A stretch of DNA of 64,000 bases from Nitratiruptor sp. YY08-10 (GTDB lineage Bacteria; Campylobacterota; Campylobacteria; Campylobacterales; Nitratiruptoraceae). Position numbers and translations under genes: made by a program. How positions within the stretch are numbered: the stretch's first letter is position 1; every line of letters begins with the position of its first letter. Where the stretch lies: positions 1,178,001-1,242,000 of the forward strand of contig NZ_AP023057.1 in NCBI RefSeq assembly GCF_016629565.1, written 5' to 3'. Positions 50,526 to 51,632 of this stretch are shown one piece after another. The notes under the pieces are model-generated. The model was not told where the DNA came from. It did not search any database and saw only the letters and a list, made by a program, of their open reading frames with translations.

Positions 50526-50600
50526 TGGGGTGTCGCCAAGCGGTAAGGCAGCGGGTTTTGGTCCCGCCATTCGGGGGTTCGAATCCTCCCACCCCAGCCA
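50526..50600 (+). tRNA. tRNA-Gln (TTG)
   Basis: A 75-nt cloverleaf with encoded CCA. Acceptor TGGGGTG pairs with CACCCCA; anticodon stem GCGGG/CCCGC holds loop TTTTGGT with anticodon TTG at 50558-50560; T arm GGGGG-TTCGAAT-CCTCC. The first pair is T-A, as in most bacterial tRNA-Gln. Confidence 0.95.
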
Positions 50601-50607
50601 CTTCTGT

Positions 50608-50684
<77 letters not shown>

Positions 50685-50690
50685 AATCCC

Positions 50691-50982
50691 CTAACAATCT
50701 TTATTTATTCGATCATATTCATCATGAGTGAGTATGTGACGCAATTCATATATTTCTTCAATAACAGTAAGTAAAATCCGATATTGCGTATTTAATACTC
50801 TTACTGAATATCGATATTTATCTTTTTTGCAATTTTTTATAATGAAGCCTATAATCCGTTGGATCATTTTGTAAAATTGATAAAGTTTCTTCTATGAGTT
50901 TTTTTAATTGGGGATTTTTTTGAATAAGCTTTTTATAATCTCTTTTATATCTGGTGGAAAAAAGAAATTTTAAATTAAACAG
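50691..50982 (-). pseudogene. ParE/RelE-family toxin, frameshifted
   Basis: Read across one frameshift, the minus strand encodes a RelE/ParE-like toxin of about 96 residues: STRYKRDYKKLIQKNPQLKK, then DPTDYRLHYKKLQ, then KYRYSVRVLNTQYRILLTVI, ending ELRHILTHDEYDRINKDC. The shift falls at a run of six A (minus, 50828-50823), where one A fewer restores the frame. There is also no ATG, GTG or TTG at its head; CTG at 50982, inside the end of the upstream gene, is the only plausible start. It is therefore probably inactive. The upstream 143-aa gene may be its old antitoxin partner. Confidence 0.7.
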
Positions 50983-51406
50983 CCTTTTTCAATGTAAATA
51001 TATCTCTATATGACTCTAAAGTACTGATTCTATCATCGATTTGTAGTGTAAGAGTATATAAGTCATCCACAATATCATAGAGTCTTTTGAAATATTTATC
51101 TATGCTCTTTTTATTTTCCAAATATTTTAAAAGATTAAACAAGTTTTCTTTTGAAGTATCAATATACGAATAAAACTCTTCTAAATTTACATCATCTATA
51201 ATTGAAAAATCCTCTTTTGCTATATAATCATCCAAATTATTTAGTATTTTTTGCATATCGTTTTTATTATTGATTAATTGAAAAATCAACGAATCCATTA
51301 TCTTTTCATATACAACTTTTTTCGTTTGAAAATATGAATCTTTTAATGCATCTAAGACATTTAAATACAGATCAGTAAAATTTGATGGAAAATAGATAAC
51401 ACTCAT
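50975..51406 (-). CDS. Hypothetical 143-aa protein of the tRNA-fMet islet
   Basis: An intact gene with its own extended -10 (TGATATAAT, 51436-51444 region) and a good ribosome site (AGGAG) before ATG 51406. The protein is acidic, rich in I, L, N, D and K, and predicted all-helical, with heptad-like stretches (DALKDSYFQTKKVVYEKIM, NLFNLLKYLENKKS, RLYDIVDDLYTLTL). I do not recognise a family. Its C-terminal codons overlap the head of the broken toxin frame, so it could be an antitoxin or a remnant companion. Its low GC stands out even in this AT-rich window. Confidence 0.6.
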   Translation of the reverse strand: MSVIYFPSNFTDLYLNVLDALKDSYFQTKKVVYEKIMDSLIFQLINNKNDMQKILNNLDDYIAKEDFSIIDDVNLEEFYSYIDTSKENLFNLLKYLENKKSIDKYFKRLYDIVDDLYTLTLQIDDRISTLESYRDIFTLKKAV

Positions 51407-51435
51407 AACAAACTCCTATAAAATACTTTACTTAG

Positions 51436-51441
51436 ATTATA
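51436..51441 (-). promoter_or_regulatory. -10 element (TGATATAAT) of the islet gene
   Basis: Minus-strand TATAAT with the TG extension, 30 bases upstream of ATG 51406. Confidence 0.6.
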
Positions 51442-51507
51442 TCACATAAGGTCTATATATTTATTTCTCTTATAATATTATCCAGGAATCCTATGCTAGA
51501 AAATCAG

Positions 51508-51535
51508 AGGTTCAAATCCTGCCTCCGCAACCAAA
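51508..51535 (+). repeat. 28-bp direct repeat, right copy (tRNA-fMet 3' end duplicate)
   Basis: Exact copy of 50659-50686 at a distance of 849 bp, followed by ATCCCC where the left copy has TCCCC. No tRNA 5' half precedes it, so it is not a functional tRNA. Confidence 0.88.
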
Positions 51536-51632
51536 ATCCCCACAATTTTGCCACAATTCATCCTTTTCGATTAAACTTTCTTCAAATTTCATTATGATAC
51601 AATCTTTGCAAAACACCATATAAGGATAAAGC

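Follow-up and report, generated by a model that had tools for sequence, protein, structure and literature searches.

Behind one of the two initiator tRNA genes of Nitratiruptor sp. YY08-10, the last 28 bp of the tRNA region recur 849 bp further on, which raises the question of what the DNA between the two copies is and how it came to lie there. We analysed the locus within a window of 64,000 nucleotides (the whole stretch of DNA under analysis) from a genome comprising a chromosome of 1,792,750 bp and a second contig of 27,067 bases (Table 1). The repeat (AGGTTCAAATCCTGCCTCCGCAACCAAA) is identical in both copies, as a sequence-only reading of this DNA had described, and chance does not account for an exact match of this length at such a spacing. 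The islet is thus a duplicated fMet 3′ end with an insertion directly at the tRNA 3′ end; as that reading also held, the duplication leaves the tRNA whole. Its GC content is 24.1%, compared to 37.7% for the window, of which it forms the lowest-GC 821-bp stretch. Some additional similarity to the right of the 28-bp core (TCCCC..ACAAT, shuffle p=0.02) was discounted, given that it consists partly of toxin C-terminal codons. The native flank (AAATCCCCACAATTTTGCC...) lies directly 3′ of the distal copy.

Table 1. Features of the islet and its surroundings (positions in the window).
Feature	Position	Strand	Remark
tRNA-Gln (TTG)	50526..50600	+	Partner of fMet; same pair again at second fMet locus
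tRNA-fMet, initiator, insertion site	50608..50684	+	One of two identical genomic copies
Proximal 28-bp repeat copy, attL-like; T-arm to CCA plus AA	50659..50686	+	
Toxin 3′ part, ParE/RelE-like	50691..50891	-	Profile A2 match 50694-50852, E=2.1e-16; stop codon 4 bp from proximal repeat end
Toxin 5′ part, other frame, no ATG/GTG/TTG start	50821..50988	-	Profile A2 match 50824-50955, E=6.6e-5
P0001, 143 aa, predicted all-helical putative antitoxin, intact	50975..51406	-	Family A1; AlphaFold2 pLDDT 85.9
Ribosome-binding site of P0001, AGGAG	51413..51417	-	Sequence
Extended -10 box of P0001, TGATATAAT	51436..51444	-	Sequence
Distal 28-bp repeat copy, attR-like, then native host flank	51508..51535	+	
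Native flank	51536..51632	.	93 of 97 intergenic bases identical to SB155-2, there directly after fMet

The sequence-only reading had staked its case on an empty site existing in some relative, and one does exist: in the sister species SB155-2 (1,877,931 bp), the single fMet gene at this locus runs straight into the flank, which agrees with that of YY08-10 up to the next, orthologous gene. Given this arrangement, the distal copy is the native tRNA end and the 849 bp are the inserted DNA. Comparison of the two sequences indicates a gain of 849 bp on the branch leading to YY08-10, clean loss in SB155-2 being the less simple alternative. Another strain, YY08-14 (AP023061.1), is nearly identical to YY08-10, with a chromosome longer by 13,966 bp (PMC9723563). 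The perfection of the repeat had been taken as a sign of recent insertion, which we do not follow: a flank divergence of 4% from SB155-2 predicts about 1.2 changes in 28 bp, the chance of observing none is about 0.3, and the perfect repeat therefore says little about age. All it shows is that insertion before the two species diverged is not required.

No integrase was found among the genes between the repeats, consistent with what had been noted before; the four Phage_integrase genes of the genome all lie elsewhere (0/4 in the 64,000-nt window). A Zot/pI ATPase, a secretin, and a replication protein are likewise absent from the islet, whose boundaries are cassette-tight, enclosing an operon and about 100 bp upstream of it between the repeats. 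The only intact ORF is P0001, with the ribosome-binding site and -10 box that the sequence-only reading had recognized, although this extended -10 box was missing from the listing of a scan for -35/-10 promoters. Single-sequence searches with P0001 (relatives, viral contigs, plasmids, and named genomes) gave nothing convincing, nor did PADLOC. The databases assigned it to no family, none of the known antitoxin families in the libraries searched was matched, and a structure search with the predicted all-helical bundle returned no fold match (best E=0.28). The second gene is the broken ParE/RelE-like toxin of the sequence-only reading, and both of its pieces match the family profile. We noted two lesions: a missing ATG/GTG/TTG start and a frameshift near the middle of the gene, within an A-rich stretch. 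An intact relative (L086) scores 25.1 bits against PF24732 (ParE_like; cut-off 24.4), while the family shows a weak match to YoeB structures (E=0.021). By these sequence comparisons, the islet toxin is assigned to the RelE/ParE superfamily.

P0001 was considered as an orphan, a view ruled out when an order-wide search and a profile revealed its family. The matches from the order-wide search are weak, of the same length, and directly upstream of a toxin-like gene of 94–96 aa. Using profiles, we identified relatives in 16 of 399 genomes of the order, nearly all beside or upstream of a ParE/RelE-like toxin. Judging by this conserved arrangement, P0001 and the broken toxin form a single two-gene toxin-antitoxin-like module and no chance pair, which the sequence-only reading had missed. 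It is from position and pairing only that we take P0001 to be the antitoxin.

This module is often the cargo of mobile elements. In another member of the order (L140), an intact copy lies inside an inovirus, beside TraX, secretin, and Zot genes, and in a further genome (L141) the module adjoins phage-type genes. The L140 inovirus (L140:7087-17766) sits between 22-bp direct repeats (TTCAAGAGAATTTACATTATGT) and not at a tRNA; no integrase was recognized in it, and a Xer recombinase acting on a dif-like site may have placed it there. Uncharacterised antitoxins in inoviruses have been described before (PMC6813254). Three other modules (L142:9416-10115, L148:9560-10266, and L151:3062-3851) follow stable RNA genes: tmRNA in two genomes, at a distance of about 150 bp, and an elongator tRNA-Met in one genome of the same family. 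No flanking repeat was detectable in the surrounding DNA examined for the tmRNA- and tRNA-Met-linked modules, and the tmRNA flanks in the genus of genome G227 are variable, with no clean empty site. A related toxin, paired with a partner comparable in size and placement, is present in the Nitratiruptor phages NrS-1, NrS-2, and NrS-3 and on one Sulfuricurvum plasmid. YY08-10 itself harbours NrS-2, reported at 282,568 in tRNA-Arg, where we found both the tRNA-Arg and an integrase; a second ParE-like toxin of this genome, with an overlapping 129-aa partner, lies there (L153:9360-10011), and NrS-1 and NrS-3 have a similar arrangement. Among viral contigs, toxin profile A2 retrieved no confirmed relative, and the P0001-family alignment (A1) held no stretch conserved enough for such a scan.

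The initiator tRNA had been called an unusual target whose loss would be lethal. Neither point held: YY08-10 has a second, identical tRNA-Gln/fMet pair, and loss of one fMet gene is therefore not obviously lethal, while Campylobacterota inoviruses habitually target fMet. The second fMet is itself occupied, as the sequence-only reading had not seen. Its 3′ end is repeated perfectly over 46 bp, 10.26 kb away, and it holds a complete-looking inovirus prophage outside the window (L006:4029-14365; G000:C1:718028-728364) encoding an integrase, SSB-like and pIII-like proteins, Zot, a secretin, and Rep; SB155-2 is empty at this locus too. The paper on Nitratiruptor phages (PMC9723563) uses neither the word filamentous nor the word inovirus in its main text. 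Inoviruses with related integrases occur at fMet in eight other genomes among those examined. Two are Campylobacter portucalensis and a Sulfurovaceae MAG, with the same core; the other six, picked from a census of fMet 3′ ends across the order, belong to another of its families and are arranged alike, with integrase, Zot, secretin, and Rep. Zot prophages have also been described in tRNA-Met of several Campylobacter species, e.g., CON_phi4, GRACI_phiZ, and HYO_phiZ (PMC5025632). Taken with the resident inovirus and the eight genomes, these reports make the initiator tRNA a normal target in the phylum.

Other observations at fMet genes are of separate interest. Two insertions of 13.6 and 14.2 kb in another family of the order (L306 and L308) have a related integrase and no Zot or secretin match, so elements of other kinds also use this target. 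In two congeners, 46-bp copies of the fMet core lie near contig ends (L082:153-198 in G003:C72 and L081:120-166 in G012:C2) and are probably the far ends of related prophages. Short spacings of fMet 3′ ends (100–530 bp) were also seen in other genomes, though the four loci checked proved to be tandem tRNA genes and no islets.

The attachment cores of the fMet inoviruses differ from that of the islet. All those inspected begin at the anticodon loop (CTCATAACCC...) and span about 46 bp, whereas the islet core starts in the T-arm and lacks the 18-nt anticodon-loop part, with nothing tRNA-like on its 5′ side. Given this missing part, the resident integrase probably cannot excise the islet. A core of 28 bp need not be a truncation, however, as zot prophages at tRNA-Ser have natural cores of 25–27 bp that start in the T-arm (PMC5025632).

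How, then, did the islet arise? The sequence-only reading had offered a minimal satellite mobilised in trans or the end point of a larger element's decay; the second is the better reading, while the first is a less likely possibility. With moderate confidence, we regard the islet as the remnant of a larger prophage-type element that was reduced to its addiction module, the toxin of which then died. This reading builds on the insertion, the empty site, the identity of the module, the lesions in the toxin, the short core, and the lack of an integrase, and from these we infer a larger ancestor, a deletion, and an order of events. A larger integrative element of prophage type would have inserted at the 3′ end of this fMet, in the simplest case once the lineage had separated from that of SB155-2. 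The left end of the islet would be the natural end of that element, since the toxin stops next to the repeat, in the way that the resident inovirus has its last gene ending beside the other fMet. A single large deletion, from just upstream of the module's promoter into the distal attachment core, may then have removed the rest, including the integrase, and cut the core to 28 bp. The addiction module could not have been lost while the toxin worked, so the operon and its promoter would have been left. Later, loss of the start codon and the frameshift would have inactivated the toxin, leaving a free-standing antitoxin-like gene with its promoter, and two separate lesions suit such decay. Against this reading stand the tight boundaries, the natural T-arm cores at tRNA-Ser, the failure to find a relative with the full element at this fMet, and the lack of any sequence in the islet matching the resident inovirus.

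The same tight ends, enclosing exactly one operon with its promoter and repeats, would also be expected of a minimal non-autonomous element, consisting of the attachment core and a toxin-antitoxin operon and inserted in that form by a trans-acting integrase, possibly one recognizing the T-arm and not the anticodon loop. Zot prophages at tRNA-Ser do use such T-arm cores. The modules behind tmRNA and elongator tRNA-Met suggest frequent delivery to RNA 3′ ends; however, they lack a detectable repeat, we found no further islet of this size flanked by tRNA repeats, and the 399 genomes of the order contain no second copy of the islet. The core used by the resident fMet integrase, moreover, includes the anticodon-loop part that is missing here. 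We therefore consider this origin rather unlikely, and it is doubtful that the islet represents a whole class of minimal cassettes that co-resident phage integrases place at tRNA and tmRNA 3′ ends and that hold their site by addiction.

Entry without an integrase, e.g., by natural uptake of a fragment carrying the module beside an fMet 3′ end, is improbable. The 28-bp shared stretch could have guided the joining, with only the T-arm part in common, and the congeners noted above have other duplicated fMet 3′ ends; however, the second junction would have to be illegitimate, and recurrent site-specific insertion at fMet makes an integrase the simpler cause. That the repeat or the frameshift is an assembly or sequencing artefact is scarcely credible, despite the A-rich stretch at the frameshift, given a complete genome, a distal flank that agrees with SB155-2, islet genes with relatives elsewhere, and the absent start codon as a second lesion.

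The islet illustrates what may be the residue of prophage decay at a habitual site, with the addiction module as the last part to persist and, within it, the antitoxin. Through it, an uncharacterised ParE-like module of Campylobacterota becomes linked to phages, and the habit of inoviruses to occupy the initiator tRNA, known from Campylobacter, now extends to the deep-branching vent genus Nitratiruptor. Were the islet a cassette after all, it would represent a very small class of mobile unit.

Compared with known systems, the module resembles type II toxin-antitoxin systems with RelE/ParE toxins in having two overlapping genes, a small ParE-like toxin in second place, and one promoter, and in being carried by phages and plasmids; it differs in that the first gene (the P0001 family) is unmatched to known antitoxins and the islet toxin is broken. 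The modules of NrS-1, NrS-2, and NrS-3 (AB746912, LC545443, and LC545444) have a related toxin (37.5% over the C-terminal half) that follows an overlapping gene of ~129 aa, but they are carried by intact siphoviruses at tRNA-Asn and tRNA-Arg, and profile comparison detected no relationship between the NrS-2 partner and P0001. With the fMet inoviruses, i.e., the Campylobacter zot prophages and the resident one, the islet shares an initiator tRNA as its site (adjacent to tRNA-Gln at the loci we examined), insertion downstream with a duplicated 3′ end, and an empty site in a relative; unlike them, it is 0.85 kb long, contains neither an integrase nor any phage gene, and is bounded by a 28-bp T-arm repeat in place of one of about 46 bp. 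Both of its components are of familiar types, namely a scar left by a prophage at a tRNA and a toxin-antitoxin-like module borne by phages, with a partner from an unnamed family.
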